From NCBI RefSeq assembly GCF_003545715.1, contig NZ_QVNU01000007.1, positions 310,001 to 374,000 on the forward strand: a DNA stretch of 64,000 bases. The letters are read 5' to 3'. The notes below the pieces were generated by a model, which saw only the letters and a program-made list of their open reading frames with translations, was not told the origin of the DNA and made no database searches. Each line of letters starts with the position of its first letter. Position 1 is the stretch's first letter. Source of the stretch: Taibaiella koreensis (GTDB lineage Bacteria > Bacteroidota > Bacteroidia > Chitinophagales > Chitinophagaceae). This document shows positions 2,423-44,190 of this stretch, piece after piece. The position numbers and the translations under genes are program-made.

Positions 2423-3330
2423 TGATGGAATGATGTTAGTTTAGATTGTGTACTTAGTTGGTTAGAAGTTTGGATTAGAGGCATGAAAATAGGTGCACGC
2501 CAAAGCAATTAAAGCGCAGGTTAAGCATGTGTAGGTGCGGAGCTGATGGTTAATTTGATTCCTGAATAATGACCTCCTTTTTTAATATTTGCTGCAAGTT
2601 CTTTTTTTTAAAACCCGGAGAAAGAGGCAATTGGTGATTACGCACGATCACTTTGTAATCATGCAGGAATAAACAATGGAAGTGACAAGGGCATATGCTT
2701 ACGGGAAGATGCCTGATAATAATCGCAGGTCCCGATGAATAAGGGTTTCCAAAATGCCCGTACCATTTGAAGTGTCTAATGATATGGGTAAAGCACCGGT
2801 TAACAGCTGACAAGGAACTCTCTTACACATGATTGTCAGGTCGGCGCTACCTATACTATTTTGAAGACATCCTAGCCGATAATATACCTGCAAATGCGTA
2901 CATATCATTTGCAACGTTTATCGCATGAACACGGCAAATCAATTACCGGTTTTCGATTGCAATCATTACTTTGCAGCGTCGTAAAATGTACTTGAATACC
3001 ATATTTGTTAGCCTGAAATAGAAGCCTGGATTAGGATCAAGCATTCTTCCTGATGGAAAGGGTCGCCGGTTTTTAATTGAACAGGTAGGTGGGAAAGATG
3101 TATTGCAAAAAAGATGGCATGGAAATTTCAGTCATCGTTCTTTTTCATTTTATGCTAAACCTTCTGAAAGAATAATATTAACCCTCTGCTGATAAAACAA
3201 CGGTTTGTTGGACGAAAAAGATAATCAGTATGTAATTGAGCCTTTAATTTATCGGACGATCTGCCTTTTCCCCAATATGAATAATAGAAAAGTGAGCTGC
3301 AGATTGCTTGCAGCATACCGCAGCTTTGAA
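2423..3330. other. Intergenic region between divergent protease and sensor kinase genes
   Basis: About 900 bases lie between the divergent starts at 2422 and 3331. Two overlapping minus-strand ORFs (2550-2813, 2699-2914) have no recognisable motif and a composition unlike the neighbouring proteins, so I do not call them. The region should hold the promoters of both flanking genes, but I see no exact TAnnTTTG with a paired TTTG. Confidence 0.5.
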
Positions 3331-6201
3331 ATGCCCTTCAAGCTGTTTTTTCTTTCGCTACTGTACCTATTGTCTGTAGTTGCTCCAGTTTATGCCCAGC
3401 GATACAGTTATACTAACTATGATATAAAAGATGGCCTGGCCGGCAGTACTGTGAACGGTATGACCCAGGATAAATCAGGTTTTATATGGTTCAGTACAGA
3501 AACGGGACTTAGCCGTTTTGACGGAACAAAATTCAAAAATTTCAGAAGGGAAGACGGGCTTCCCAGTAACGAGACTTTTGCCGTATATGCCGATACCAAA
3601 AGCAGGATCTGGATCATCCCTTATAAAAACACGATATGCTATTACTGGAATGGGAAAATATACAACGACCAGAATGATACTACGTTAAGGAAATTGAGGT
3701 TTACCTACGAAGTCAATGGCATTGCTGAAGATGCAGCTGGTAATCTTTTAGTGGAAACGCAAAGAGAAGCTTTTGTCATTTATGCCGGCCGGCATACGGT
3801 AAAATTCTACGCTAAAGTTCCGGAAAAGTATGAGATCGGTGGGTTGGATTTCAAGCCCGTGGCCGGTGTAGGAGGGCGGTTTCCGGCGACGATGATATCG
3901 GCCAGGATGGGGCAAAATTTCAATTATCTGGCGCATCCGGATAACCGGAATTTTTCGAAATCGAGTGCCGCTGTTTTTTTTTCCTACCTGGACAGTAGCC
4001 TTGCGATCCTATACAATAGCACCGCACCTGCCTATTATTTAAAATTGCCGCGGGAGGCAAGGGTGAAGATAGTTGATGATAGTATCGTTGCGATTATGAA
4101 TACTCCGGGGAATGGCGCCCGTTTTTTTAATATTTATAGAAAACAATTTACAGCGCAATTCCTTCGGGGTTATACTATTCACGATGTATTCCGGGATATA
4201 GAAGGCAACATCTGGTTTTCTACAAAAGAATCCGGAGTATTTAAACTAAGCCCTGCAGTATTCAGGTCTTTCTTTTTCACCACAAATCCCATACCGGTTG
4301 CTGTCTTAAGTATATTTAAATGCGGAAAGGAACTGCTGGTGGGTACCAACAAAGCCCAATGCTGGAAACTTTACCCCACCGAAGGATTGAATTTTAGCAG
4401 GATAAATTTAAAGGACAACGAACGTTCCCCATTACTGAAAAGCAGCTGGGAAGAACCGCTGTTTATCAATTATGCGAGCTCCGATTACCTGCATTTTGCA
4501 AAGCGACGTGCTACTGATATAAAGACTTTAATGTTTTTTCATGACACCGTGTTGATCAGTAATTGCGACGGCGTCTTTCTTTCCAATCTCCGGGATGGCA
4601 CACTCCTAAAGTGTTTACATAAGGGCCGTGCTACCTGTGCTTACAGGCATGAGGGCCTCTATTATATTGGTACATTGAACGGACTATATACGACAACAAA
4701 CGAAGGGGAGGAAGTTTATCTGGGCAATAGCAATAGCCTTTTCAGGAACCGCATCAGTTCTTTTGCGGCGGATAAGGAAGGTACTCTTTGGATTGCTACC
4801 TATGAAAATGGAATCGTAGGATACAGGAACGGAAGTGTTACCGTAAATATTACACAAACGAATGGCGGGCTCAACAGTAATATCTGCAGATGTCTTTATC
4901 GTTCGGGAAATACTTTATGGGTAGGCACGGAGAAAGGGCTGAACAAAGTGGATATGACTGGTATTGAAAAATATAAAGTAACCGGAAGGTTCAGTATGGC
5001 CGATGGGTTAACTTCGGATATTGTCAATGCAATTTATGTGAATGGCCCTGAAGTATATGTAGGGACAGCAAACGGACTGGTACGTTTTAACGAAACCAAA
5101 GTACCGCAGCATTCCATTTGTTATCTCCGGATGACGGACATCCGGGTGTCTGAAAAAAGTTATGATCCCGAAGCGCCTTCCTTTGAGCTACCGCACGCTG
5201 ATAATAATATAAGCTTTGAATTCGTTGGTATATCCTTTTTGTCGGAAGGAAATATCCGTTACCAATACCGGCTCAGGGGCATGAATGACCAGTGGAAAGT
5301 AACTTCGGTACCAATCCTTACTTATCCGTCATTACCCTCGGGAAAATATACACTTGAAATTATCGCCGTAAATAAATTCAATGACAAGAGCGAGTTGATG
5401 GTGAGGGAATTTGAGATCAGGAAAAGCTTGCCGGAGGAAATCTGGTTCAGGGTCCTGATCCTTGTCCTGATAACCGGTATTATCTGGTTGCTGGTATTGG
5501 CCCGTTTTAGCATGGCGAAAAAAAAGGAAGCAGAGCGAAGCCGGGTACAGCAGCAACTATTGGAATTGGAGCACATGGCCTTAAGGGCGCAGATGAATCC
5601 CCATTTTATATTTAATTGTCTCAATTCTATTCAGCATCATATTATGCAGCAAGATACCATGGGAGCCAATATTTATCTGTCCCAATTTGCAGACTTGGTA
5701 AGACAGACGTTAAATAACGCGCCCAGGACCCATATTATGCTCAGCGAAGAAATAGCGTATCTTACCAGCTACATGGAACTGGAAAAGCTGCAAATAGGCG
5801 ATGAGCTCAGTTATAGCATAACCGTCGACCCGGCTTTAAACAGAAGTAAGATCAAAGTGCCCAATATGGTTATCCAGCCTTATGTGGAGAACGCCATTAA
5901 ACATGGCATCGGCCGTTTAGCTGCAGGAGGAACGATCCTGGTTCAATTTCGATTGCAGCGCAGTACGAATGTTTTGGAATGCATTATCGAAGATAACGGC
6001 CCGGGGATGGCGCAAACCCTTGCTATGGACAGGGAAAGCAAAAGGCTTCATGCCTCTAAGGGGCTTTCCATTACACAAAACAGGATACAGACTTTGAACC
6101 AGCTTTCCGGTTCGCAAAATAAGATCAATGTCAGGCTGGAAGAAGTAAGCCCGGATGCGATCAATAAGGGAACGCGCGTCATCCTTCATTTTCCTTTGTA
6201 A
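3331..6201 (+). CDS. Two-component sensor: propeller periplasmic domain plus LytS-type histidine kinase
   Basis: From ATG 3331 this is 956 aa. The frame is open upstream (TTG 3205, ATG 3277), but the ATG at 3331 starts directly at the signal peptide (MPFKLFFLSLLYLLSVVAPV). Reg_prop-type propeller blades follow (IWFSTETGLSRFDG, IWFSTKESGVFKL, LWIATYENGIVGY, LWVGTEKGLNKVD), then a Y_Y_Y-type domain near residues 610-700 and one membrane helix at about 706-728. The cytoplasmic part is a His_kinase/LytS module: MNPHFIFN with the likely phospho-acceptor His758, the N-box VIQPYVENAIKHG and the G-box EDNGPGM. It senses an unknown periplasmic signal and should phosphorylate the LytTR regulator 31 nt downstream. 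Unlike SusR-like hybrids there is no fused receiver. Confidence 0.9.
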   Translation: MPFKLFFLSLLYLLSVVAPVYAQRYSYTNYDIKDGLAGSTVNGMTQDKSGFIWFSTETGLSRFDGTKFKNFRREDGLPSNETFAVYADTKSRIWIIPYKNTICYYWNGKIYNDQNDTTLRKLRFTYEVNGIAEDAAGNLLVETQREAFVIYAGRHTVKFYAKVPEKYEIGGLDFKPVAGVGGRFPATMISARMGQNFNYLAHPDNRNFSKSSAAVFFSYLDSSLAILYNSTAPAYYLKLPREARVKIVDDSIVAIMNTPGNGARFFNIYRKQFTAQFLRGYTIHDVFRDIEGNIWFSTKESGVFKLSPAVFRSFFFTTNPIPVAVLSIFKCGKELLVGTNKAQCWKLYPTEGLNFSRINLKDNERSPLLKSSWEEPLFINYASSDYLHFAKRRATDIKTLMFFHDTVLISNCDGVFLSNLRDGTLLKCLHKGRATCAYRHEGLYYIGTLNGLYTTTNEGEEVYLGNSNSLFRNRISSFAADKEGTLWIATYENGIVGYRNGSVTVNITQTNGGLNSNICRCLYRSGNTLWVGTEKGLNKVDMTGIEKYKVTGRFSMADGLTSDIVNAIYVNGPEVYVGTANGLVRFNETKVPQHSICYLRMTDIRVSEKSYDPEAPSFELPHADNNISFEFVGISFLSEGNIRYQYRLRGMNDQWKVTSVPILTYPSLPSGKYTLEIIAVNKFNDKSELMVREFEIRKSLPEEIWFRVLILVLITGIIWLLVLARFSMAKKKEAERSRVQQQLLELEHMALRAQMNPHFIFNCLNSIQHHIMQQDTMGANIYLSQFADLVRQTLNNAPRTHIMLSEEIAYLTSYMELEKLQIGDELSYSITVDPALNRSKIKVPNMVIQPYVENAIKHGIGRLAAGGTILVQFRLQRSTNVLECIIEDNGPGMAQTLAMDRESKRLHASKGLSITQNRIQTLNQLSGSQNKINVRLEEVSPDAINKGTRVILHFPL

Positions 6202-6232
6202 TACAGATATACGCTGAAATAATTTTACACCA

Positions 6233-6997
6233 ATGATAAACGCTGTAATAATTGAGGATAAAGCCATAAATGCAAAAACATTACAGGCCATGGTCCGGAA
6301 CTACTGCCCCTCAGTAAATATTGTTGGTATAGCCGGAGATATTGACAGCGCATTTGCCATGCTCCGCCAACATATGCCCGACCTGGCTTTCCTGGACATT
6401 GAAATGCTCGGAGGAAGCGGATTCGACCTGCTTCGCAAGTTTGATCCCGTCCCCTTCGAAGTCATTTTTACTACAGCCTACAACCAATATGCCATTGAAG
6501 CTTTCCAGGAGAACGTGCTGGATTATTTATTGAAACCGATCAATATTTCCAATCTTCAGCGTGCTGTAGCTAAAGTCGAAAAGCAAGTTGCACTGAAAAA
6601 ATCGAACGAGGAGGTTGCAAAACATTTGAGATCCCTTCAGAAGCTGGCGCCAGGCAAGATCAGCCTCCCGACTATTGACGGTTATCTTTTTATCGCCCCC
6701 CAGGAAATCATACGTTGCGAAGCTTCCGGCAGCTACAGCAATTTTTATATGAGTTCAGGCAAAAAGATAGTGGTCAGCATGCTTTTGAAAAAGTGTGAAG
6801 ATTTGTTGCCCTCAGCATTATTCCTCAGGATACATAACTCCCATATCATCAACCTTCAGTTTGTACAGCAATATATACGTGGCAGGGGAGGGTATATAGT
6901 GATGCAGGATGGATCACGGGTGGACGTGGCTGCCAGCAGGAAACAGGACTTTCTGGATGCGATGAGCCCTGCACATTCCATAAGGATCAGCAAGTAA
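6233..6997 (+). CDS. LytTR-family response regulator
   Basis: 254 aa. The N-terminal receiver has the acidic pair IED (8-9), the phosphorylation site Asp55 in AFLDIEM, TTAYNQYA near 81-88 and Lys102 in LLKPI. The C-terminal half (about 145-250) is a LytTR DNA-binding domain, with IIRCEASGSYSNFYM, FLRIHNSHIINL and the closing GSRVDVAASRKQDF. It lies 31 nt after the sensor kinase and is surely its cognate regulator. LytTR proteins bind direct repeats upstream of targets; the divergent protease gene and the downstream cargo gene are plausible targets, but no binding site could be assigned. Confidence 0.93.
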   Translation: MINAVIIEDKAINAKTLQAMVRNYCPSVNIVGIAGDIDSAFAMLRQHMPDLAFLDIEMLGGSGFDLLRKFDPVPFEVIFTTAYNQYAIEAFQENVLDYLLKPINISNLQRAVAKVEKQVALKKSNEEVAKHLRSLQKLAPGKISLPTIDGYLFIAPQEIIRCEASGSYSNFYMSSGKKIVVSMLLKKCEDLLPSALFLRIHNSHIINLQFVQQYIRGRGGYIVMQDGSRVDVAASRKQDFLDAMSPAHSIRISK

Positions 6998-7471
6998 AAT
7001 GTCGCTTTTGCAGGGTTAATATTTTAGTTAGCTGTGCTAAGAAGAAATACGCGATAGAAGACTCAATAAAACGCTGGTTTTTTGAAGCAATTGCCTTTAT
7101 GGCCTATCCGGAGCGCAAAGGGCACATTTGATAACGTACTGGCAGAAATGGCTGCGCGCCCGGTAATCTTAATAAAGTAGGTCGTAGCGCGACGCTACGA
7201 ACAGGTGGGTACAACCCAACTCAGTTGTCACACAACCGAAGAAATAAATCTTCGATTATTGAGATCCAAAGGAACATCGATGGAAAGACCTGGAAACTAA
7301 CAAGCGGCGTATCCTCGTATAGTATAAGGGCCGGTTTACGATAATATACATTTCCTGGCAATTCTTTTCATAAAGAAGAATGGAAACAAAAAGCCAACAG
7401 GTTGAGTGTTGGCTTTTGTTTTTTTTATCTACACATACAATTCGATAAATGAATGATGAACGTAGGCGCAC
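6998..7471. other. Non-coding gap with several hairpins
   Basis: No convincing gene. Inverted repeats follow one another: TCGTAGC/GCTACGA at 7182-7200, CAACT/AGTTG near 7219-7229, CGAAGA/TCTTCG near 7239-7256, and the terminator hairpin at 7389-7426. The 71-aa minus-strand ORF at 7256-7471 has no family features and is probably spurious. Confidence 0.5.
7389..7426. terminator. Bidirectional intrinsic terminator
   Basis: An 11-bp stem (AAAAGCCAACA / TGTTGGCTTTT) with a 7-nt loop is followed by a T-run on the plus strand and also, reading minus, by TTTTTGTTT. It lies 45 nt past the stop of the minus-strand gene ending at 7472, so it most likely ends that transcript. Confidence 0.8.
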
Positions 7472-8521
7472 CTAATGTTGTACAATCATTTTGCTATAGT
7501 AGTTGCCTGAATCGGCATTGAATCTGAGAAAATACAACCCATCAGGTAGTGGGCGTGTATCATAACCCATCTTTTGCTGGCCTTTGCTTAAAACCTTTTC
7601 TGCAATCCGTTTGCCGGTAATATCATAAATCTGTATCGTCAAGTCAGTATTGAGTGTTTTTGTGCAGGCTATGGTGATTTCCTCGTTTGCCGGATTGGGG
7701 GAGACGGACAAAAATGAGGGTAATTTTTCCAGATCGTTTACGCTCAGTTTTCCCGGACTGAATAAGGTATCGCAGGGAAGGGGAGAGATCAGTGAAATCG
7801 AGTGAGCGGAATCGGTGTAACATCTCAGCTTACCATAAAACGGCCCATTGTTGATGATCTGTCTGCCGTCTGTTGCATGTGTGGTGACCGTTGGGTACAG
7901 CCCGCTTACGTTGGCTAAAGTGCCCCCCAGCTTTTCGGTATACCGGCCTTTGTTAAGCCATCCACCGGGGCCACTGCCACTATTGGGAAAGGATATGCCC
8001 CAGTTAACAGCATAACTGAAATTGTCGATAATTGTATGCGTATAATAAGTTTTTAAATGACTCGTGTCGTACAACTCTGTTCTTATGGAATCTACAATAT
8101 AACGAAATGTAGTATCTCCAAAGAAATTGAACAGTCCCGAAAGGCGTACTGTGTCGCCCTCTGATACGTTGTAAACATAAAGCGGAATAAACTTTCCGGA
8201 GGTATTGGCATAAACGAATGCCGTATCAGTATTGTCGTAGACGAAAGTAGTCTTGACGCTGGTATGGACTACATCCGGGTTGTCGGCACTTCTGGACCTT
8301 ACAGTGGTGACCAGCTGCCTGCATGGAATACCATTAACCACGGTGTCTCCAACCGACTTTACGTGATCTACCCAGGTGGAATTGACAAAAGGAGATTGCG
8401 GGTCGGCATAATCTCCATAGTTCCCGCCGTACCACCATTCTGCCCCTACAGGCGCAAATGTGGTTTGGGCATAATTCATAATCGGAATACAAAGCAGGAT
8501 AAACAGTAATAATTTTTTCAT
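7472..8521 (-). CDS. Exported protein with T9SS type A sorting domain
   Basis: 349 aa with a signal peptide (MKKLLLFILLCIPIMNYAQ) followed by PVGAEWWYGGNYG, a start seen in several Chitinophagaceae exported proteins of unknown function. The last ~80 residues form a Por/T9SS type A sorting domain: LSVSPNPANEEITI, IQIYDITGKRIAEK, LPDGLYFLRF, SKMIVQH. The middle part is beta-rich and unassigned. The protein at 44380-45300 has the same architecture and similar opening and middle segments (VGDTV, YRY-type strands), so the two look like paralogues. Predicted secreted or surface-attached; function unknown. Confidence 0.82.
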   Translation of the reverse strand: MKKLLLFILLCIPIMNYAQTTFAPVGAEWWYGGNYGDYADPQSPFVNSTWVDHVKSVGDTVVNGIPCRQLVTTVRSRSADNPDVVHTSVKTTFVYDNTDTAFVYANTSGKFIPLYVYNVSEGDTVRLSGLFNFFGDTTFRYIVDSIRTELYDTSHLKTYYTHTIIDNFSYAVNWGISFPNSGSGPGGWLNKGRYTEKLGGTLANVSGLYPTVTTHATDGRQIINNGPFYGKLRCYTDSAHSISLISPLPCDTLFSPGKLSVNDLEKLPSFLSVSPNPANEEITIACTKTLNTDLTIQIYDITGKRIAEKVLSKGQQKMGYDTRPLPDGLYFLRFNADSGNYYSKMIVQH

Positions 8522-8536
8522 AGTGTAAATTTTTAA

Positions 8537-8968
8537 AATGAAGGATTTTATTCTACGACACCGGCGAAGGGGAAAAGTACTATTATTGTAAATAAGATCA
8601 TTGATTCTTTAAAATTACTTAAACCAGATAGCGCTATAACAAGTGAATTGGACTACAGGATAGATATGCTAAATTCCGTATTCCAGGATTACGAAATCGA
8701 TAGCGTAGGGTATGCGCTATATGACACCTTAATGGTTAAGGAAGGCAAGCAAGAGTTTGTTGTTTATAAGATATCGAGCGATTTATCATCTTCTTTTTGG
8801 AATGAAGATTTTAACAACTGGATGTTTCTTTATTGCAAGGAATTTGGCGTGATTCAATACGAATATTGGGGTGGACTTGGAGACTATTCCTTTCCTGATA
8901 CCTCTATACCTCTACCTGTAGGCTTGTCGATAAATGCCGCTTATCCGATTTGGAAAAACTCCAACTAA
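8537..8968 (+). pseudogene. Probable N-terminally truncated gene fragment
   Basis: The frame is open from just after a TAA at 8534-8536 to the stop at 8968, but the first ATG in frame is at 8672 (only a TTG lies at 8648). The readable product includes NKIIDSLKLLKPDS, the plausible globular stretch VYKISSDLSSSFWNEDF and LYCKEFGVIQYEYWGGL. No signal peptide or family was recognised. It reads like the C-terminal part of a protein whose start was lost; a short real gene using TTG 8648 cannot be excluded. Confidence 0.4.
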
Positions 8969-9497
8969 ACCGGCTTCAAGCGAGAGTTAAATTAAGACCA
9001 TAGAATGATTGTCGTGAATACCCTTTTAAAAAATAGAGTTACTCAATATCAAATCTATGAAAAACAGCCATCGTGATTATTATCGGGCTTTATTCCTCTA
9101 CAACTTCTGTTTATGGACAAAGTAATACTTGCAAAATTGTATTGCGACTGAACTTTTTTGAAGGTCTCCTTTAACAAGGAAGCATTAATGGTCAATAGCA
9201 TTTATAGTCAGCTTATCACAGAATCTTACGGCCAGGTCTTTCGGAATTTCCACTTTTGTTTTAATATCACCGAATCATACTAGGCAACCTATGTCTTTTC
9301 CCATTATTGCACGGAAAACAGGCTGTTATGAGAATGATAATTTCGTTGGAACCGTCATTTGCAACAGGGTCAATAACGCCCAGATCCGCCGTTAAGTCGA
9401 AACGTTTATAGATGTTCTAAAAATCATTCCTTGATTTGCTTACAAGCTTCAGGGGTTTGCATACATGCGCACGATTTGACTTACCGACCTTTGGATC
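8969..9497 (+). pseudogene. Intergenic stretch with a frameshifted signal-peptide gene remnant
   Basis: At 9057 an ATG opens MKNSHRDYYRALF and stops after about 22 codons. The +1 frame of the same bases reads TAIVIIIGLYSSTTSVYGQS, a good signal-peptide sequence, and continues to a stop near 9175. This is what a single-base frameshift in an exported-protein gene would leave. A further open stretch (MVNSIYSQLITESYGQVF) runs to about 9285. No intact gene is seen before the aldo/keto reductase. Confidence 0.4.
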
Positions 9498-10502
9498 ATG
9501 GAAATAAAACAAATAGTATTGGGCAGCCAGGGTTTGGTTGTGCCGGTGGTCGGCCTGGGCTGTATGGGCATGACTGGGTTTGAAGAGGCGCATATGTATG
9601 GTCCTGCGGATGAGCAGGAAGCCATCGCGACAATCCAACGTTCGCTTGAGTTAGGCGGTAATTTTTTAGATACTGCCGATCTGTACGGACCGTTGAAGAA
9701 TGAGCAGCTGATCGCTAAAGCGATCAGTGGCAAACGAGATCAGTATATTTTGGCGAGCAAGTTTGGCTGGGAGATCGATGATCACAATAAGATAACCTGG
9801 GCCATCAATGGTAAGAAAGATTATGTAAAGAAATCTTTGGAGCGTTCGCTCATAAATCTGAATACGGATTACATCGATCTGTATTACTTGCACCGCCTGG
9901 ATAAAAATACGCCGATTGAGGAAACGGTCGAGGCGATGGCACGGCTCGTTCAAGAGGGTAAAGTGGGTTATATCGGTTTATCGGAAGTTTCGTCTGAAAC
10001 GGTTAAGCGGGCGCATGCCGTGCACCCAATCACTGCCGTACAAAGCGAGTACTCTTTGTTCGAGCGCACGGTGGAGGAACGTGGGGTTTTGACAACCTTA
10101 AAGGAACTGGGTATTGGTTTTGTAGCCTACTCACCGCTGGGCCGTGGATTCTTATCTGGACAGATCAAAAGCATCGATGACCTGCCTGAGCATGATTTCC
10201 GCAGGGCAATCCCTCGTTTCCAGGGCATACAGTTCGACAAGAATATTGAATTGGTGAAGGCTATCGAAGTAATGGCTGAAGCCAGGCATGTCACTTCTTC
10301 GCAGCTGGCCTTGGCCTGGATTATGAGCAAAGGCATTCTGCCAATCCCAGGAACGAAACGCCGGAAGTACCTGGAGCAAAACATTGAGGCAACAACTATT
10401 GTATTAACTCAAGCGGATCTATCACAACTGGAAAGCATTGTGCCCTTAGGTACGGATACCGGTGCGCCTTATGATGAGTTCAGTATGGGTTTAATTGATT
10501 AG
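9498..10502 (+). CDS. Aldo/keto reductase
   Basis: 334 aa, the usual length for the family. The catalytic tetrad is visible: Asp58 and Tyr63 in FLDTADLYG, Lys88 in LASKFG and His132 in YYLHRLD. PIPGTKR near the C-terminus is the NADP(H)-binding segment. The GLGCMGMT start is typical of the YakC/AKR13-like branch. It reduces aldehydes or ketones with NADPH in the cytoplasm; the natural substrate is unknown. The AraC-type gene begins 8 nt downstream, so the two are co-transcribed and the regulator may control the reductase in response to its substrate. Confidence 0.93.
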   Translation: MEIKQIVLGSQGLVVPVVGLGCMGMTGFEEAHMYGPADEQEAIATIQRSLELGGNFLDTADLYGPLKNEQLIAKAISGKRDQYILASKFGWEIDDHNKITWAINGKKDYVKKSLERSLINLNTDYIDLYYLHRLDKNTPIEETVEAMARLVQEGKVGYIGLSEVSSETVKRAHAVHPITAVQSEYSLFERTVEERGVLTTLKELGIGFVAYSPLGRGFLSGQIKSIDDLPEHDFRRAIPRFQGIQFDKNIELVKAIEVMAEARHVTSSQLALAWIMSKGILPIPGTKRRKYLEQNIEATTIVLTQADLSQLESIVPLGTDTGAPYDEFSMGLID

Positions 10503-10510
10503 TTTTGACT

Positions 10511-11398
10511 ATGAACGCCATTAACTCCATATCGGAATTTCACCGTTTGCTATCCTTAACCGAACCTCGCCACCCGCTGGTGAGCGTGATCAATCTGGCA
10601 GAAAGTGTTTTTTTGGAAGACGAGATATGGAAAAGTTTCGTTAACCGCTTTTATTGCGTGGCGCTCAAGCGCGAAGCCAAAGGCAAGATTAGGTACGGAC
10701 AGCAGCATTATGATTACGATAAAGGAGTATTGAGTTTTACCGCACCTAATCAGGTTCAACAACTGGACCTGCAAAATACAGAATGCGGTTCCGGCTATCT
10801 TTTGATTTTTCATCCGGACTTCTTGCTGCAGCATACGTTGGCGAACAATATTCATCACTACGGTTTTTTCGATTATGCGGTAAACGAAGCGCTGCATCTA
10901 TCAGCCGAGGAGGAAGATGACCTGATTGCTATCCTACATAAAATTGATAAGGAGTGCCAGCATATCGATAAGCATACGCAGGAGATCATTCTCACCCAGA
11001 TCGAGGGTCTGCTAAAATACTCCAACCGTTTTTATGAGCGGCAGTTTTTGACTCGTAAGAATAATAATTCAGCGCTGCTGACCAGGTTCGAGCAGCTGAT
11101 CGATGACTACTATAACAGCGACGTACAGGGTTTGCTCACCGTACAACATATTGCTGCGCAGATGAATTTGTCGCCGAATTACCTGAGTGACCTGCTTCGG
11201 GTCCATACCGGGCAAAACACACAGCAGCATATTCACGAAAAACTGATCGTCAAAGCAAAAGAAAAACTTTCCACGACTAGCCTTTCAGTCAGTGAGATCG
11301 CCTATGCCCTGGGCTTTGAGCATCCGCAGTCCTTTAGCGTGCTTTTCAAAAAGAAGACGAATTTATCGCCGCTAGCATTTCGTCAGGCCTTTAACTGA
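10511..11398 (+). CDS. AraC-family transcriptional regulator
   Basis: About 295 aa from ATG 10511; a TTG at 10505 in frame is a less likely start. The N-terminal ~170 residues form a cupin-like AraC sensor domain (KIRYGQQHYDYDKGVLSFTA, LLIFHPDFL). The C-terminal ~100 residues hold two helix-turn-helix motifs: LLTVQHIAAQMNLSPNYLSDL, then LSVSEIAYALGFEHPQSFS followed by FKKKTNLSPLAFR. It starts 8 nt after the aldo/keto reductase stop. AraC plus reductase pairs are common; a role in regulating that reductase is inferred. Confidence 0.92.
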   Translation: MNAINSISEFHRLLSLTEPRHPLVSVINLAESVFLEDEIWKSFVNRFYCVALKREAKGKIRYGQQHYDYDKGVLSFTAPNQVQQLDLQNTECGSGYLLIFHPDFLLQHTLANNIHHYGFFDYAVNEALHLSAEEEDDLIAILHKIDKECQHIDKHTQEIILTQIEGLLKYSNRFYERQFLTRKNNNSALLTRFEQLIDDYYNSDVQGLLTVQHIAAQMNLSPNYLSDLLRVHTGQNTQQHIHEKLIVKAKEKLSTTSLSVSEIAYALGFEHPQSFSVLFKKKTNLSPLAFRQAFN

Positions 11399-11601
11399 TT
11401 GTTTCGATTATTTAAGCAAGATCAAAAGTTTGGAAAAAAGTGATCTCGAATATTTGAAGAAATTAGTCAAAAATCGAAACTTAAGTCTCCTGGACGTTTA
11501 GCCTTTGGGATAATGAAATGGAAAAAATGCAAGAATGTCAGCTAGACTAAACGGGACAGTTGAAAGGTTAAACGATATAAACTATGTAATATTGAAATAA
11601 C

Positions 11602-12246
11602 ATGAATTATACATTTTTTTTTGACGATGACTTGGATGATTTGTTATCAGAAGCAAAAACAGCAAAGAAGATTGCGAATTTTGAATCATGGAATCAACCA
11701 TCGTTGAAAGTTGAAATAGAAAATTTAAGTAAGTTAGATTTTGTTCATCAAGGAATCAAGGAATACTACGAAAAAAGAAGTGACGGCTTTAAATTAGAAT
11801 GGTGGGCAAATAGAGAAAAAGGAATAGGAGGGAAAATAGCATTAGCTCAAACTAAATATTTATTTGCAGAAGATAATGGAATATACGATGAAGGAGATGA
11901 AACAGATCTCAAATATTTTCGTCCCCTTGATTATCCATCGCCGGAGACTTATGTAGGTTTCGTAATGAAGCCAGATATCGTATATAAGTCGCTTTACTAT
12001 ATGAGTACAAGTAATTATGAATTAGATAATTTGGATTTGGACTATAACGGTTACACCCAAATGGCAGTTGAAGCGCGTGTATTTAATCATTGGCAACTTG
12101 TTTTATTACATTATATGGATGGTAGCGGTATTGGTTCAGTAGAAATGGAAAATTTTAAAACTGAAATGCCTGAGATATTTCCAGATTGGACATGGGAAAA
12201 TTTTATTGCGAAGTTTGAGAATTTACGTCTTTCTAATAAAAAATAA
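11602..12246 (+). CDS. Hypothetical acidic protein in AT-rich accessory DNA
   Basis: 214 aa, no signal peptide or membrane segment, strongly acidic and rich in Tyr, Asp and Glu. Segments such as YVGFVMKPDIVYKSLYYMS and VFNHWQLVLLHYMDGSG look like a folded cytoplasmic protein, but I do not recognise the family. Base composition is clearly more AT-rich than the flanking genes, and the gene sits directly before transposase and recombinase remnants, so it was probably acquired horizontally. Size, charge and context resemble immunity proteins of polymorphic toxin systems, but no toxin gene is adjacent; that reading is speculative. Confidence 0.7.
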   Translation: MNYTFFFDDDLDDLLSEAKTAKKIANFESWNQPSLKVEIENLSKLDFVHQGIKEYYEKRSDGFKLEWWANREKGIGGKIALAQTKYLFAEDNGIYDEGDETDLKYFRPLDYPSPETYVGFVMKPDIVYKSLYYMSTSNYELDNLDLDYNGYTQMAVEARVFNHWQLVLLHYMDGSGIGSVEMENFKTEMPEIFPDWTWENFIAKFENLRLSNKK

Positions 12247-12310
12247 AATTTCAAAAAAGACAAAAGTGGAACCTTTAAGTAAGGTTTCTCTTTTTTATAG
12301 TGGTATTGCT

Positions 12311-12420
12311 TTTAGGAAAAGGATCTATTCTACTCTCCAGCAGATACAGGAAGATCTGGACGCATGGATCAATGAGTATAATACTAATCGAACACACACG
12401 GGAAAGTATAGCTTTGGCAT
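12311..12420 (+). mobile_element. Transposase 3'-end remnant (IS3/IS481 integrase type)
   Basis: The frame reads RKRIYSTLQQIQEDLDAWI followed by NEYNTNRTHTGKYSFG. This is the typical end of the rve integrase core in Bacteroidota IS3/IS481-type transposases (LDxWIxxYNxxRTHxGKYxFG). The catalytic part is absent and the sequence switches to unrelated DNA at about 12420. This is a dead fragment of about 110 bp. Confidence 0.75.
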
Positions 12421-12546
12421 AAGATTTACACCTGTAGCCAGGTCATTGATGGCCTGGTTGATCGCCCTCAGGTCATCTTCTTTTGCCTCCTCCCGCAGCA
12501 GGTAAAATGCCTTGCTTAACGGTTTTTTTTCTTCGTTCTCTTCCAT
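12421..12546 (-). pseudogene. Truncated ORF of a mobile-element pair (5' part)
   Basis: The minus strand opens with ATG 12546 and reads MEENEEKKPLSKAFYLLREE, then AKEDDLRAINQAINDLATGV, a charged helical start. The frame then runs into the transposase remnant and stops near 12325, so its original 3' end is lost. It begins 11 nt after the stop of the minus-strand ORF at 12558-12815, suggesting two genes of one former operon. Family not recognised. Confidence 0.4.
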
Positions 12547-12557
12547 TTTTATCAGAT

Positions 12558-12815
12558 TTATTGTCTTATTTTTCTTCGTTTTTTCTTCTTCCTTGCTGCT
12601 ATTTCAGTAGGTTCAGTGGGAGTGTATACGGCCGTACGGCCCATTAATGCTTCCAGCACAGAACCCATCCGGCTATTACTATTTTGCTGCTGCCCACTAT
12701 GACCTGCGTATGGCCCAGGCTGTATGTTATCCCTTTGAAAAGCGTCGTTTTGACAATGAACAGGGCGGTCAACCGGCAGCCTTCTGCTTAAAGAGTCTTG
12801 GGAGGGCCAAAATCT
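12558..12815 (-). pseudogene. Truncated basic-tail ORF, partner of the preceding fragment
   Basis: The minus strand is open for about 86 codons from 12815 to the TAA at 12558, with an internal ATG at 12668. It includes DRPVHCQNDAFQRDNIQPG, MGSVLEALMGRTAVYTPTEP and a very basic tail (ARKKKKRRKIRQ). The N-terminal part is missing. Composition and context suggest a gene of a plasmid or integrative element; I do not recognise the family. Confidence 0.35.
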
Positions 12816-13211
12816 TCACGCATCCGATGACCGGAAAGAAACCATAAGGCAAATATCGGAGCTAAAGGATAAGTTATCTTACATTAGGGAGCTACTTTCT
12901 TCCCGGCAGATCGAACCTGATGATTTCAGAGAAATGAAATCTGATTATGGCTTGAAGCTGGATCGTCTCGAAGCAAAGCTGAATGGGTTGAACCACGAAA
13001 ATATCAATATCAAAGACTTGCTGGAAACCGGTATGGATAACCTCTTAAAGCTGGATTCTATATATGAAGGGGCCGATATGGAAAAGAAGCGGGCAGTCAT
13101 TGGTTCGATGTTCCCGGAAAAATTGCATTTTGAAAACAACAGGCTTCGAACCGGAAGGGTTAATGAGTTTGTGCAATATATCTACCAGATAGAGAGCAAA
13201 ATAGGCGGAAA

Positions 13212-13249
13212 TAAAAAAGGACAAAATGGAATCGCTTCCATTTTGTCCT
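13212..13249 (-). terminator. Intrinsic terminator on the minus strand
   Basis: A perfect 14-bp stem (13218-13231 with 13236-13249, tetraloop) is followed on the minus strand by TTTTTTATTT. It lies just past the extra copy of the tRNA-Pro 3' end, the place expected for a terminator of that tRNA before an insertion moved it away. Confidence 0.7.
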
Positions 13250-13254
13250 CTCAA

Positions 13255-13271
13255 GTCGGGAAGACAGGATT
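13255..13271 (-). repeat. Extra copy of the tRNA-Pro 3' end (candidate attachment site)
   Basis: These 17 bases are identical to 13420-13436, which cover the last 16 bases of tRNA-Pro plus one flanking base, in the same orientation. Similarity stops abruptly at 13272 rather than fading. The serine-recombinase tail ends here. Read as an att-type direct repeat left by integration at the tRNA gene. Confidence 0.6.
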
Positions 13272-13383
13272 ATTTACATGATCCTAAAGGTGGAAGTCCA
13301 AAAGAAATAAAGCTTGCTACGCTGCTTTTTTCTTTTGTCCCTTCTGTTCGAAAACAAGTTTTCTGCCATTCGTGTCAAAAGAA

Positions 13384-13412
13384 AAAGCCCTCCGCATTGC
13401 GGAGAGCTTTAT
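13384..13412 (-). terminator. Intrinsic terminator of the tRNA operon
   Basis: The stem AAAGC(C)CTCCGC / GCGGAG(A)GCTTT has an ATT loop. Read on the minus strand it is followed by TTTTTCTTTT. It lies directly downstream of tRNA-Pro. Confidence 0.75.
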
Positions 13413-13420
13413 TTCTTTTG

Positions 13421-13494
13421 TCGGGAAGACAGGATTCGAACCTGCGACCCCCTGGTCCCAAACCAGGTGCGCTACCGGCCTGCGCTACTTCCCG
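13421..13494 (-). tRNA. tRNA-Pro (TGG)
   Basis: 74 nt, minus strand. The acceptor stem pairs CGGGAAG with CTTCCCG, with discriminator A. The anticodon arm CCTGG-TTTGGGA-CCAGG gives anticodon TGG, and the T arm contains GGTTCGAATCC. CCA is not encoded. It is the second gene of a tRNA-Ser/tRNA-Pro unit, and its last 16 bases are duplicated at 13256-13271. Confidence 0.97.
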
Positions 13495-13535
13495 TAACCG
13501 GTTCATAAACCGAAAACCTATAAAAAGATCTTCAG

Positions 13536-13624
13536 CGGTGAGGGGGGGATTCGAACCCCCGGTACAGTTTAACCCGTACGGCAGTTTAGCAAACTACTGA
13601 TTTCAGCCACTCATCCACCTCACC
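13536..13624 (-). tRNA. tRNA-Ser (GCT)
   Basis: 89 nt, minus strand, class II length with a variable arm. The acceptor stem pairs GGTGAGG with CCTCACC. The anticodon loop TTGCTAA gives GCT, and the T arm contains GGTTCGAATCC. It lies 41 nt upstream of tRNA-Pro, so both are probably on one transcript. Confidence 0.95.
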
Positions 13625-13741
13625 ATTAAGTTTAAGAACTGGTTTCCTTCGTTAAAGGAGTGCAAAGGTAATGTCTGGAGTTCGAATGGCGAAATTATTT
13701 TTTGAAATTTTCATAATTATTTTTTCGCCATCGCTGTGCTC

Positions 13742-15220
13742 CTACATGGCCGCCAGCTGCACTTTCTGCTGGATTTCAAGCAACTTCTCGCGGTAGGATT
13801 GATCGGTCTCCATCAGGTTTTCTACAGTCTGGCAGGAGTGAATAACCGTAGTGTGATCTTTGCCGGTAAAGTGCTCCCCAATCGTCTTCAACGAGCTACG
13901 GGTAAACTTCTTGGCAAAGTACATCGTGATCTGGCGCGCCTGCACGATCTCCCTTTTACGGGTCTTCGTCAACAGGTCGTTGTAAGGCACGTTATAGAAG
14001 TTGCAGACCATCTTCTGGATATCGTCGATGCTCAGTTCTTTGAAAGAGGCCTTCACAAAGTTCTTGAGCACGCGCTTGGCCAGCTCCAGGTCAATTTCTT
14101 TCTTATTCAGAGTAGCCTGTGCAAACAAGGAGATGACGGTACCTTCAAGGTCACGCACGTTGTTCTGCACATTGTAGGCTACATACTGCACTACTTCTTC
14201 GGGTATCTCCAGGCCTTCGTTGCGCATCTTCATCTCCAGTATTGCCTTGCGGGTATCGTAGTCGGGCGCCTGTATCTCGGCGTGCAATCCCCAGCGGAAG
14301 CGGCTCAGCAGGCGTTCCGGCATGCCTTCCAGGTCTTTGGGCGGCGTATCGCTGCTCAGCACGATCTGTTTACCGTTTTGATGCAGGTGGTTGAAGATAT
14401 TGAAGAATACATCCTGTGTCTTGGTCGCACTTACCAGCAGGTGAATATCGTCGAGCAGCAGCACATCGATCAGCTGATAGAAGTGTATGAAATCGTTCAC
14501 CTCCTGGTTCTTCGAGTGATCGATGAACTGGTTGATGAACTTCTCGGTGCTCACATACAATACCGATTTGTTGGGATGCTGGCGGCGGATCTCGTTACCG
14601 ATAGCCTGCATCAGGTGCGTCTTGCCGCAGCCGGTGCTGCCGAAGATCATCAGCGGGTTAAAGGCCGTTGCGCCGGGCTTTTGGGCAATGTGCACACCGG
14701 CAGTGCGTGCGAGGCGGTTGCATTCGCCTTCTATATAATTTTCAAAGGTAAGGTTGGGATTCAGCTGCGGATCGATCTGCACCCGCTTCATACCCGGTAT
14801 TACGAACGGATTCTTGATCTTCTGCGGATCATCCATTACATAATCCAGGTTCACAAAGTTATTCTCTTTGGCGTTTTTGGGATGCGCGCTGCCCGGTAGC
14901 TGCATGGTTGCAGGCTGCTGGCGTTGCTGCGCCGAAGCTTCCATCTGGATCCGGTATTCCAGTCTCCCTTCTCTGCCCAGTATACGTTTGATCGTTTTGC
15001 CCAACAGTTCTACATAATGCTCTTCCAGCCACTCGTAAAAGAACTGGCTGGGCACCTGTATGGTCAGAATGTTGTTGGTAAGGGCAGCAGCTTTGATGGG
15101 TTCAAACCAGGTTTGAAAGGCACGCCAGTTGACGTTATCTTTGATAATGCCAAGACATTTGTCCCATGCCGCTACTGCGTCAAGATTAGAAGTAGAGTTG
15201 TTGGATTGGGATGGAGTCAT
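13742..15220 (-). CDS. dnaA: Chromosomal replication initiator protein DnaA
   Basis: 492 aa. Domain I spans about 15-90 (WRAFQTWFEPIKAAAL) and is followed by a Gln/Pro-rich linker. The AAA+ domain has Walker A GSTGCGKT at about 194-201, Walker B LLLDDIHLL, and sensor/arginine-finger segments (PERLLSRFRWGLHAEI). Domain IV ends with the DnaA signature HFTGKDHTTVIHSC, which reads the DnaA box. It binds oriC and opens it in an ATP-dependent way. It is transcribed alone, away from the tRNAs. I found no cluster of TTATCCACA-type boxes next to it, so oriC is not assigned here. Confidence 0.98.
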   Translation of the reverse strand: MTPSQSNNSTSNLDAVAAWDKCLGIIKDNVNWRAFQTWFEPIKAAALTNNILTIQVPSQFFYEWLEEHYVELLGKTIKRILGREGRLEYRIQMEASAQQRQQPATMQLPGSAHPKNAKENNFVNLDYVMDDPQKIKNPFVIPGMKRVQIDPQLNPNLTFENYIEGECNRLARTAGVHIAQKPGATAFNPLMIFGSTGCGKTHLMQAIGNEIRRQHPNKSVLYVSTEKFINQFIDHSKNQEVNDFIHFYQLIDVLLLDDIHLLVSATKTQDVFFNIFNHLHQNGKQIVLSSDTPPKDLEGMPERLLSRFRWGLHAEIQAPDYDTRKAILEMKMRNEGLEIPEEVVQYVAYNVQNNVRDLEGTVISLFAQATLNKKEIDLELAKRVLKNFVKASFKELSIDDIQKMVCNFYNVPYNDLLTKTRKREIVQARQITMYFAKKFTRSSLKTIGEHFTGKDHTTVIHSCQTVENLMETDQSYREKLLEIQQKVQLAAM

Positions 15221-41089: not shown

Positions 41090-41378
41090 TATTCTGATCT
41101 CGCAGCGTCGCTGCGACGCCGCGAGACATGTCCTTTCCCTTTCCATTCGCCATAGAGAGAATCGGGAGCAAGCAGACCCGGGATTATGTTTCAGCTACCA
41201 CTTCTTTGGAGCGGACACAGATCGTCCTGTCCGGCTTCCGGTCTGAACGCGCCAGCGGTCGGAACGGAAGCTGAATCTTTAGATTTTTTTATCCCCCGGC
41301 TTTCCGCTTGAGCCAGATCCACTAAGAACATCCTCCTACCGGCGCCGGCAGGAGGATGTTCTTGGTAAATAACGTCTT
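41090..41378. other. Intergenic gap with two long hairpins and a dyad repeat
   Basis: Contains a 30-base near-perfect inverted repeat at 41098-41127 (TCTCGCAGCGTCGC arm), the 30-bp CCGGTC...GAACGG element at 41238-41267, and a 40-base nearly perfect palindrome at 41324-41363 (AAGAACATCCTCCT arms around a CCGGCGCCGG core). The last lies where a bidirectional terminator for pfkA and the minus-strand operon is expected, but lacks a clear T-run. Confidence 0.7.
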
Positions 41379-42605
41379 TTAAAGACTTGTCAACGTTTTG
41401 ATCCTGGAGTGCTTTACATCCAACAACAGCGTCACCATATGCGCATACAAGCCGTCGCTGCGCTTATACCAGGCATAACGCAATGCGGCTTCGTCGAAGA
41501 AGCAATGCCCGCCCATTCTTGCCTGCGGGGCATAACGCAGGGTAAGGCCCATCTTGATATCATTAAACGCAGAAAGATCATAATCGGAAGTGTAAAAAAC
41601 TTCTGAAGAACTATGTTCTTTATAAGGCTTGAAGTAACGCGAAGCGGTTTGGGTATACCAGCGCAGGTGTGGCGCTATCGCCAGCTGCGGCGACAGTTTC
41701 ACCGGCACCTCCAGCTGAAAGGTATGCGCCGTGATCCCGAAGTTGTCCCAATAGAAGCGGTAGTAGGCGCGGAAGATCAGGTTGCGGAAAGCGAATATGT
41801 TGGCCTGAAGACCGATCGGTATTTTCCAGCGTTCCATAGGCAGGTTCTCGACCCGTGCCGAAATTTCATTATCGAAATACACCCGGTGAAAGGGCGTAGA
41901 CAACAAGCCTTTCTGGTAGACCAGCTCAGGCATCAAAGCAACGCGTACACGTCTGTTAACGATCTGGTACAATGCAAAGCTCAGGTTATAAGAGTTGCGG
42001 GTATAAGTATCGAACCATTGCTTATAGCGCAGCTCGATGGGATATACCAGGGTTACGGGCCGCCAGTACCGCTTGTTGATACGCCCCCAGCGCAGATCGT
42101 CGAAATAGGTTTGCAGGCCCAGTTGCAGCTCGGTGGAGCCATCTGCATTGGTATAAGAGAGCGATAGCCCTACAGGAAGAGAAGTATAGTCCGATTCCAC
42201 CGAAAGTCCGGTACGGAGCCCTGCGGTAATACCACTTCGTCCCAGCTTGCGGCTATAGCCGATACCGAGGTGGCTGCGTATATCGGAGCGGGAGGCTGAG
42301 CTGATCACATAATCGATGTTATCGGTTGAGGCGGAGGTGATCACGTCGGCGCCGATATTGATGCTCATCGTTTGTACAGAGTCGGGCCGGTGGGTAATCG
42401 TCGCTTCCGCGGCAAAGACGGTAAGCTGCTCGGTTCCCTTGCCGCCGGTGACTGCCGAATGATTGCCGTCCTGGCTATAATAGGATAGCAACGCCTGTAC
42501 TTCGGTTTCTTTCAACTGTTGTTTTTGATATACGGATTCCTGTTGCTGCGCTCTTCCGGTAAAAGAAGATGCTAATAATCCAAATAGCAGGTATCTTTTC
42601 TTCAT
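41379..42605 (-). CDS. DUF3570 outer-membrane beta-barrel-like protein
   Basis: 408 aa. Signal peptide (LLFGLLASSFTGRAQ), then alternating amphipathic strands ending in an aromatic-rich C-terminal half (RYKQWFDTYTRNSYNLSFAL, YYRFYWDNFGITAHTFQLEV, HLRWYTQTASRYFKPYKEHS), as in DUF3570. ALLSYYSQDGNHSAVTGGKG and GADVITSASTDN are the N-terminal family signature. Asp87-V-I-T-S-A-Ser93 resembles the D-x-x-[S/T]-[G/S]-A-[S/T] flavin acceptor motif of ApbE, and apbE lies two genes upstream. Probably a covalently flavinylated barrel or its partner; that is inference. Last gene of a four-gene operon. Confidence 0.85.
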   Translation of the reverse strand: MKKRYLLFGLLASSFTGRAQQQESVYQKQQLKETEVQALLSYYSQDGNHSAVTGGKGTEQLTVFAAEATITHRPDSVQTMSINIGADVITSASTDNIDYVISSASRSDIRSHLGIGYSRKLGRSGITAGLRTGLSVESDYTSLPVGLSLSYTNADGSTELQLGLQTYFDDLRWGRINKRYWRPVTLVYPIELRYKQWFDTYTRNSYNLSFALYQIVNRRVRVALMPELVYQKGLLSTPFHRVYFDNEISARVENLPMERWKIPIGLQANIFAFRNLIFRAYYRFYWDNFGITAHTFQLEVPVKLSPQLAIAPHLRWYTQTASRYFKPYKEHSSSEVFYTSDYDLSAFNDIKMGLTLRYAPQARMGGHCFFDEAALRYAWYKRSDGLYAHMVTLLLDVKHSRIKTLTSL

Positions 42606-42619
42606 AGGGTTTACCGGTA

Positions 42620-42844
42620 TTAATTGCAGCCGCAGCCGCCGCTGCTTTTACCTGTGCCGCCGCCCGAAGCGCCTTCGCGGTACGACTGTGCATTCTCGTC
42701 AAAGCGTTCTACATCCAGCTTGCCGGCCTGCATATAGCTATCGTTCAGGTAGGCTCTCTGGTAAGGCTTTACCGTAGTGCAGGCGCCGAGCCCCAGGAGC
42801 CCGGCTAACAACAGCATAAGCCCGCGGGATCTAAGCTTGTGCAT
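42620..42844 (-). CDS. DUF4266 small lipoprotein
   Basis: 74 aa from ATG 42844. The lipobox LLGLGAC gives a lipidated Cys, followed by TTVKPYQRAYLNDSYM, the DUF4266 core (VxPYxRxxLxDxxM), and a Gly/Ser-rich tail ending GGCGCN. Start overlaps the end of apbE by 14 bases; DUF3570 follows after 14 bases. The family always seems to accompany DUF3570; function unknown. The Cys pair near the C-terminus could bind metal or be redox active (inference). Confidence 0.88.
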   Translation of the reverse strand: MHKLRSRGLMLLLAGLLGLGACTTVKPYQRAYLNDSYMQAGKLDVERFDENAQSYREGASGGGTGKSSGGCGCN

Positions 42845-43757
42845 GGGTAGCAATATGTTGAGAGGTGTGCATACGGTTGTTTTGATCAATAATGAGGGCA
42901 TGGACGCCGGGGAGCTGCTCCACCAGGTCGAGCCCTACTTCGATACCCATAATGGTAACGGCTGTTGCCAGGGCATCGGACAGTTCTGCGCTGGGACTAA
43001 TGATGGTGACGCTCCTGATCCAGCGGGCCGGAAGCCCCGTGCGCGGATCGATATTATGAGAATAGCGCGTGCCATCGAGATCGAAATATTGTTCGTAATT
43101 GCCCGAGGTCGCTACAGAGGCCTGGTCTACTGGCAGCCACAGTAATATATGCTCGGGCCGTTCCGGATCGGCGATGCCGACCTTCCAGGGCTGGCCATCG
43201 GGACGCAGCCCCCAGGCGGTAAGATCGCCGCTGGCATTTACCACGCCCGAGGTAACGCCTTCGCGTTGCCACAGCCGCCGCACACAGTCGGCAGCATAAC
43301 CTTTGCCAATGGCCCCAAACCCTATCCGGGCGCCCTTCCGGCGCAGGAATACTTCATTGGTACGACTGGTATCGATATGCCGGTAGCCGGTGCTGTGCAA
43401 GGCCTGCTTTAATTGTTCCGTAGAAGGTAGCGCAACGCTATGGCCTTTGAAATTGTACAATGCTTTTAACGCGCCGGACGATATGTCGAAAGCGCCCTGG
43501 GTAAGGTCCGATAGCTGTAGGCAGCGTTTCGCCAGCGCATATACTTCCGGATCTACCGGTACAGGCGCCACGCCTGCCTGGCTGTTGATCCTGCCGGTGT
43601 CGGAGCCCTTGTCAAACTCGGTAAGCAATCGTTCCAGTCTTCTGATCTCATCTACACCGGCCTGAAGCAGGCGCTGCATCTGCGATACGGATTCACCGGT
43701 CACGATCAGCTCAAAATCAGAGCCCATCAGCCTTGCCTGTAGTTTACATTGCTGCAT
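42831..43757 (-). CDS. apbE: FAD:protein FMN transferase (ApbE family)
   Basis: 308 aa. MGSDFELIV, FDISSGALKALYNF, RIGFGAIGKGYAADCV and VNASGDLTAWG are the flavin-binding blocks, and YSHNIDPRTGLPARW with SDALATAVTIMG supply the Mg/FAD site. ApbE links FMN from FAD to Ser/Thr of exported proteins. No N-terminal signal or lipobox is visible from this start, so its location is uncertain; most family members act outside the cytoplasmic membrane. Overlaps both neighbours by 14 bases. Confidence 0.94.
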   Translation of the reverse strand: MQQCKLQARLMGSDFELIVTGESVSQMQRLLQAGVDEIRRLERLLTEFDKGSDTGRINSQAGVAPVPVDPEVYALAKRCLQLSDLTQGAFDISSGALKALYNFKGHSVALPSTEQLKQALHSTGYRHIDTSRTNEVFLRRKGARIGFGAIGKGYAADCVRRLWQREGVTSGVVNASGDLTAWGLRPDGQPWKVGIADPERPEHILLWLPVDQASVATSGNYEQYFDLDGTRYSHNIDPRTGLPARWIRSVTIISPSAELSDALATAVTIMGIEVGLDLVEQLPGVHALIIDQNNRMHTSQHIATHAQA

Positions 43758-44190
43758 CGATCTCTTTTAAAGCCTTTTCTATTTCGGCGATCAGGATGGC
43801 TGGAGTGGGGTAGTCCTGTTGAAAGGCATGAAGCAATTGCCTGTCCTTTCCCAGCAGGAGTATTTTTGGGAAACGGCCCTCGGCATTGAAGGCCTCGGCC
43901 AATGAATCATATTGCTGCTGCAGTGCAGGCGGTATTTTCTTTTTTTGCGGGAAGTCGGCTTTCAGGATAAAGAACCGGTCGCGGGCAAAGTCGGTGAACC
44001 GCGGGGCAGAAAGCACCTGTTGCTCGAGCCTGATGCAGGGAATACACCAATCGGAGCCCTGGAAAACGAGCAGAACGGGTTTTTGATGCTGCGAAGCCAT
44101 CGCAAACGCCGCTGCCGGATCGGTGAAAACCTGCGCCCCGGCTCCATAAGCAAAAAGCAGCAACAAAAGCGTCATCCCGTACTTGTACAT
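43744..44190 (-). CDS. Exported thioredoxin-fold protein
   Basis: 148 aa from ATG 44190; the frame continues upstream to 44244, but the signal peptide starts at MYKYGMTLLLLLFAYGAGAQ. Thioredoxin fold with the CIPC motif in GSDWCIPCIRLEQQV, a DsbD-gamma/thioredoxin_7 type start (AFAMASQHQKPVLLVFQ), and the cis-Pro region RFPKILLL. Probably a periplasmic disulfide reductase or electron carrier. First gene of the apbE operon. Confidence 0.9.
   Translation of the reverse strand: MYKYGMTLLLLLFAYGAGAQVFTDPAAAFAMASQHQKPVLLVFQGSDWCIPCIRLEQQVLSAPRFTDFARDRFFILKADFPQKKKIPPALQQQYDSLAEAFNAEGRFPKILLLGKDRQLLHAFQQDYPTPAILIAEIEKALKEIDAAM

Follow-up and report, generated by a model that had tools for sequence, protein, structure and literature searches.

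A signal-less ApbE in a DUF3570 operon of Taibaiella koreensis points to possible flavinylation before export

The window analysed here, a stretch of 64,000 nucleotides from Taibaiella koreensis (contig NZ_QVNU01000007.1, positions 310,001 to 374,000), carries on its minus strand an operon of four genes, which encode a thioredoxin-like protein, the flavin transferase ApbE, a DUF4266 lipoprotein and a DUF3570 protein as the likely acceptor of flavin mononucleotide (FMN). Judging from the sequences, we think it rather probable that DUF3570 is flavinylated in the cytosol by an ApbE without export signal, then exported by Sec and fed with electrons from DsbD. Transfer most likely takes place in the cytosol, because the ApbE of this operon lacks an export signal and the genome (99.65% complete) has no second ApbE match. 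As far as we have searched, a signal-less ApbE in a DUF3570 operon is an apparently undescribed variation in where the flavin transferase resides. In window coordinates, the features are:

43744-44190, minus strand: thioredoxin-like protein (PF13899), 148 amino acids, signal-like start MYKYGMTLLLLLFAYGAGAQ with hydrophobic N-terminus, probably an electron carrier
44035-44046, minus strand: thioredoxin residues 49-52, the redox site CIPC, read from the sequence
42831-43757, minus strand: ApbE flavin transferase (PF02424), 308 amino acids, starting with MQQCKLQARLMGSDF, without signal peptide
42620-42844, minus strand: DUF4266 lipoprotein (PF14086), 74 amino acids, lipobox LGAC
42626-42634, minus strand: CGC of the DUF4266 tail (Cys71 and Cys73); the protein ends in CGCN
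41379-42605, minus strand: DUF3570 protein (PF12094), 408 amino acids, beta-strand-like, start MKKRYLLFGLLASSFTGRAQ, likely FMN acceptor
42327-42338, minus strand: candidate flavinylation motif 1, TSAS, DUF3570 residues 90-93, with Asp87 3 residues before Thr90
42291-42302, minus strand: candidate flavinylation motif 2, SSAS, DUF3570 residues 102-105, with Asp98 4 residues before Ser102
41321-41366, no strand: near-perfect 23-base-pair inverted repeat between the DUF3570 stop and the convergent phosphofructokinase gene

The system as such is not new: it is a member of a cluster published in 2021. According to the available text of Meheust et al. 2021 (PMC8238504), the gene set consists of ApbE, DUF3570, thioredoxin and DUF4266, with or without DsbD; among 285 DsbD-containing clusters, DUF3570 is found in 227, DUF4266 in 221 and thioredoxin in 183, and a further 316 clusters without DsbD are reported. 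The DUF3570 of Chlorobium luteolum, which has two [ST]GA[ST]-type motifs, was flavinylated by its ApbE upon co-expression in E. coli, and flavinylation was abolished only when both sites were changed (PMC8238504). The same text describes the conserved CxC tail of DUF4266 and proposes an electron route from DsbD. The window resembles this cluster in that the four genes lie side by side on the same strand, DUF3570 has two acceptor motifs and DUF4266 has a C-terminal CxC, and its lack of DsbD in the operon matches the DsbD-less layouts. The initial annotation had suggested DUF3570 as the ApbE acceptor, for which the C. luteolum homologue now speaks, and a flavoprotein in the outer membrane that draws on periplasmic thiol or metal redox, of which the thiol-fed version would agree with the published DsbD model (PMC8238504); since both the gene set and the flavinylation of DUF3570 are published, its main idea was right but already known.

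The window departs from the published extracytosolic model in that its ApbE has no signal peptide. In the text of PMC8238504, flavinylation is treated as extracytosolic: a first count excluded genes without signal or lipidation site, while a later count retained clusters with such a site in any of ApbE, FMN_bind, DUF3570 and DUF2271. With regard to this criterion, the start of the window DUF3570 lies just below our hydrophobicity threshold and looks signal-like by eye. In that text we saw nothing on ApbEs without a signal in DUF3570 clusters, the supplementary table with its signal predictions aside (PMC8238504). Likewise, no published report of a signal-less ApbE in DUF3570 operons was found in a search that had subscription papers, preprints and supplementary tables outside its reach.

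In the window ApbE, about 9 residues lie between the Met and the profile match, and the open frame extends only 3 codons beyond the ATG, so that no alternative start could supply a signal peptide. With 12 open codons in total ahead of the profile match, our rule detects no export signal. We rejected a miscalled start that hides a signal on the grounds of these 12 codons and of 35 of 78 signal-less ApbE rows in which the complete open frame leaves at most 18 residues. The protein covers the full PF02424 profile, aligns to the solved chains 7esa (FMN transferase) and 1vrm (TM1553) and contains the motifs SHNIDPRTG and SDALATA, which, together with a Lys, a Thr, an Asp and a His, we take to be catalytic. 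Across the 78 signal-less rows, the Lys is kept in 78, the Thr in 78, the Asp in 76 and the His in 77.

No match to FMN_bind, NqrB/RnfD, DUF2271 or Flavodoxin_4 was present in the genome, other acceptor classes not being searched; the earlier observation that no other known acceptor is encoded nearby thus holds genome-wide for these four families. The proposal that flavinylation itself is extracytoplasmic finds no support in this genome, because its only ApbE is without export signal. In this respect the window ApbE is like the functional cytosolic ApbE of Klebsiella pneumoniae, whose target, however, is a fumarate reductase that is soluble and stays in the cytosol (PMC12052999); the likely acceptor in the window begins in a signal-like way. 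It shares enzyme family and FMN chemistry with the periplasmic lipoprotein ApbE that serves NqrC-type targets, but that enzyme is exported, and the genome of the window has no FMN_bind or NqrB/RnfD match. Cytosolic ApbEs with cytosolic or fused targets are also mentioned in this ApbE review (PMC12052999).

The absence of a signal is shared by many relatives. Signals were called by a hydrophobicity rule and by eye, the latter deciding L088 and L073 (none) and L133 (signal). ApbEs linked to DUF3570 or DUF4266 were collected from the order and the phylum (78, reduced to 67 by removing 8 cut by the locus end and 3 fused to thioredoxin), and 46 of these 67 complete, unfused enzymes have no signal; within the order of the window the hand count is 39 of 49. 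Unlinked ApbEs came from the order only and form a sample of 52 (30 best-scoring loci and 40 chosen stretches, minus duplicates and linked ones), of which 51 have a signal and 1 has none. The proteins encoded beside these 46 signal-less ApbEs do begin in a signal-like way: the thioredoxin in 39/39 found, DUF4266 in 45/46 and DUF3570 in 42 of 44 complete proteins; both DUF3570 exceptions, among them that of the window, fall barely short of the threshold. A second set comprised named loci, the best 80 of 549 confirmed, and therefore leans to near relatives; here 7 loci had no ApbE that we saw, 2 were cut, and the 71 complete ApbEs divide into 35 with signal, 31 without and 5 fused. In this set, examples without signal come from Taibaiella, Chitinophaga, Dyadobacter, Pseudarcicella, Edaphocola, Aquimarina and Hyunsoonleella; the ApbEs seen from Pontibacter, Hymenobacter and Roseivirga have a signal, as do 8/13 from Saprospiraceae. 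By hand count, the signal-less enzyme is the single ApbE match in at least 18 genomes.

The one unlinked ApbE without signal (L148:2944-3906) is an orphan that falls in a signal-less branch; an Asp replaces its conserved His, its genome has no DUF3570 or DUF4266 match, and it adjoins what by eye is an apparent cytochrome c biogenesis gene. It looks like decay after partner loss. In a distant family of the phylum (family code f16; 30 short loci, L002-L031), ApbE follows DUF3570 in 13 loci and DUF4266 in 2, and 15 have no ApbE within the short stretch; the ApbE starts that are seen lack a signal, and thioredoxin was not found in these short stretches.

Two ApbE trees were built by a quick method, one of 122 rows and one of 193 rows, 188 of them different since some named rows repeat unnamed ones. 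The signal-less state requires 5 changes on the smaller and 6 on the larger tree, and therefore the compartment of flavinylation appears to have switched several times. The clade of the window holds 36 signal-less and 5 fused rows on the 193-row tree. Fusions of thioredoxin and ApbE occupy 8 tree rows and represent 7 distinct proteins from several lineages, each in one reading frame: L192:2328-3698 (the same protein as in L083), L198, L203, L205, L207, L110 (L038) and L119 (L039).

As acceptor site, the initial annotation had named Asp87-V-I-T-S-A-Ser93 of DUF3570; this motif is present, but the description was incomplete, as the second motif SSAS at 102-105 was missed. The sequences read D87-VITSAS93 and D98-YVISSAS105. 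Motif 2 fits [ST][GS]A[ST] and not the full D-x-x form, its Asp standing at -4 and not at -3. The second letter of the motif is Ser, not Gly, in the window as well as in the consensus of 61 DUF3570 relatives. In the alignment of these 61 proteins Ser93 and Ser105 are invariant, and [ST][GS]A[ST] is intact in 56 for motif 1 and in 51 for motif 2. The exceptions are three Hymenobacter proteins with ASAS and STPS, two Aureispira proteins with TSPS in motif 1 and, for motif 2, SSDS in four Saprospiraceae or Chitinophagales proteins and SSTS, SSPS and SSSS in one each. Of a wider set of 110 DUF3570 proteins, 67 have both motifs, 29 a single one and 14 neither, a count that requires the N-terminal block to be found and may be too low. 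It had been suggested that the motif would be conserved only where apbE is linked; when checked, these frequencies gave no discrimination. Seven named loci had no ApbE seen at the locus, and of the 6 in the alignment 5 have both motifs and one (L208) has motif 2 only. Motif spacing showed no link with the ApbE signal: across 112 loci, each of the three classes most often has a spacing of 12. In DUF4266, the stretch YREGAS was rejected as an extra flavin site, since by the pattern used EGAS occurs in only 27/98 and 25/80 relatives and variants occur.

We propose that ApbE would move FMN from flavin adenine dinucleotide (FAD) onto Ser93, Ser105 or both, and that this would happen in the cytosol on the unfolded DUF3570 precursor, ahead of Sec export and outside folding. 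Once outside, the FMN-bearing DUF3570 may accept electrons of DsbD via the CIPC thioredoxin, perhaps also via the CxC tail of DUF4266, and may pass them to an acceptor, possibly a metal. For the window, we infer the flavinylation of DUF3570, its cytosolic site, the place in the outer membrane, the electron path and the purpose. The FMN molecule should find room in a Sec channel of about 22 Å. Widening of the channel to about this size is described (PMC5963308). For the E. coli co-expression, the C. luteolum constructs were designed in the same way as those of signal-truncated DUF2271 and ApbE, and DUF3570 was mostly in the cell pellet (PMC8238504); therefore, ApbE seems able to act on DUF3570 in the cytosol. 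This suggests that ApbE needs no exported, natively folded DUF3570 as target.

DUF3570 shows an amphipathic strand pattern and, in a profile search, no relative among solved structures; the protein is probably located in the outer membrane. Both motifs lie in a long segment whose length varies from 21 to 58 residues, whereas the turns before and after the strands neighbouring it are shorter, with 3 to 14 and 7 to 9 residues. By the usual rule for outer-membrane barrels, the flavin loop of DUF3570 would face outward. The lengths are a hint that the loop lies on the outer face; by eye, the later strands do not fit the pattern of short turns and long loops cleanly. If the loop is on the outer face of the barrel, modification would precede insertion and the flavin would be surface-exposed.

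The broader picture, namely a covalent-FMN protein, probably of the outer membrane, that is modified in the cytosol, threaded through Sec and inserted with its flavins, in a system whose flavinylation compartment is evolutionarily free, has in our view about an even chance of being correct. Flavinylation of exported proteins by ApbE is usually viewed as periplasmic or extracellular, which raises the question of how FAD leaves the cell. If our proposal is true, an operon with the sole ApbE inside the cell avoids the problem of FAD export, and DUF3570 would be a Sec-exported protein bearing a covalent flavin attached before export.

Several points weigh against cytosolic flavinylation. Many relatives have exported ApbEs, and the system can therefore do without flavinylation in the cytosol. 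The difference between linked and unlinked ApbEs (Fisher p 3.7e-15) overstates independence, because the two groups occupy nearly separate clades with 3 changes on the tree. The signal calls behind it rest on hydrophobicity and inspection by eye. Among the changes of the signal-less state on the larger tree, just 2 are forced by starred branches, and the thioredoxin-ApbE fusion, which would be exported, occurs in basal and inner members of the clade of the window. The Asp of motif 2 is not at the usual distance. Furthermore, Salmonella needed its ApbE in the periplasm, a cytosolic version being no substitute (PMC12052999).

Alternatively, ApbE may act in the periplasm, in line with the published model, after export without a classical signal, for instance through Sec recognition of its mature region or by travelling with the thioredoxin. 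SodA of Rhizobium leguminosarum is an example of a Sec substrate without a signal (PMC5963308), and the existence of the fusions means that ApbE can evidently sit behind an exported thioredoxin. However, several loci with a signal-less ApbE showed no thioredoxin in the stretch covered (L062, L094, L095, L096, L099 and L193, likewise L014 and L028 of the other family with its short stretches), and their N-termini are short and unlike each other; we regard periplasmic action as unlikely. Somewhat less likely again, and quite doubtful to us, is that the signal-less ApbE modifies a cytosolic protein and leaves DUF3570 without flavin here. Klebsiella and trypanosomatids do have cytosolic ApbEs that act on targets in the cytosol (PMC12052999), but the genome gave no match to the four acceptor families searched, ApbE is tied to DUF3570 by operon and occurrence, the window DUF3570 retains two motifs, and the sole unlinked signal-less ApbE has lost the conserved His. 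Loss of the signal could also begin the decay of the enzyme, as the decayed look of this orphan may illustrate, with the operon working without flavin; the 78 signal-less rows come from many families and almost all retain the active-site residues, which makes this highly improbable. Finally, a programmed frameshift in the 14-base overlap, yielding a thioredoxin-ApbE fusion exported by the thioredoxin signal, has overlapping frames and natural fusions (also in the clade of the window) in its favour and was rejected as very unlikely, with hardly any chance left to it, since the frame relation is 0, 1 or 2 in close relatives, an ATG lies 5-7 bases past the thioredoxin stop in six Chitinophaga loci and one Flavihumibacter locus, a slippery sequence common to the loci was not seen and some signal-less ApbEs have no adjacent thioredoxin.

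In co-occurrence lists of 248 sampled genomes of the order, read by hand, DUF3570 is present in 57; of these, 55 also have DUF4266, which occurs in no other genome of the sample, and the remaining two match DUF3570 only weakly. ApbE is found in 56 of the 57 genomes with DUF3570 vs 91 of the 191 others (p 4.6e-14). The two cysteines of the thioredoxin are kept in 75/77 and 70/70 best matches of relatives, with varying residues between them, and the C-terminal CxC of DUF4266 in 98/98 and 80/80 distinct relatives. The genome has a single DsbD match, on another contig than the operon and unlinked, whose C-terminal part is thioredoxin-like by eye; this is consistent with an electron route from DsbD via the CIPC thioredoxin to DUF3570.

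Conserved neighbours beyond the four genes were not found, the commonest other cluster reaching only 7 of the 80 named loci. Directly downstream of DUF3570, four loci (L211:5191-5613, L223, L227 and L255) encode a small Rieske-like protein, for which the PF00355 match was tested in L211 only; its position hints at an electron partner in these loci. The operon is flanked in L221:5871-7064 and L229:1031-2047 by a PepSY_like protein and by one that matches the cytochrome c-like family PSCyt1.

Regarding the operon itself, coordinates and Pfam matches bear out the four minus-strand genes of the initial annotation, with scores above cut-off throughout (PF13899 45.5 bits, PF02424 265.4, PF14086 65.6 and PF12094 97.1), as well as the CIPC site and the CGC-type tail. 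Its reading of the genes as one unit also stands, with overlaps of 14 bases between thioredoxin and ApbE and between ApbE and DUF4266 and a gap of 14 bases between DUF4266 and DUF3570. These spacings are not conserved: thioredoxin and ApbE of relatives range from overlap to gap, in all three frames. The DUF4266 start is an internal ATG, the longer open frame beginning at 42901. The inverted repeat downstream of DUF3570 is a possible terminator and is absent from the sites of the terminator scan. The promoter scan gave 5 sites where 3.0 were expected and the terminator scan 2 where 3.3 were expected, counts near expectation and therefore nothing to build on. Elsewhere in the window, positions 2001-14000 have a guanine plus cytosine content of 0.41-0.45, compared with about 0.50 in most of the remainder, and may be foreign DNA.

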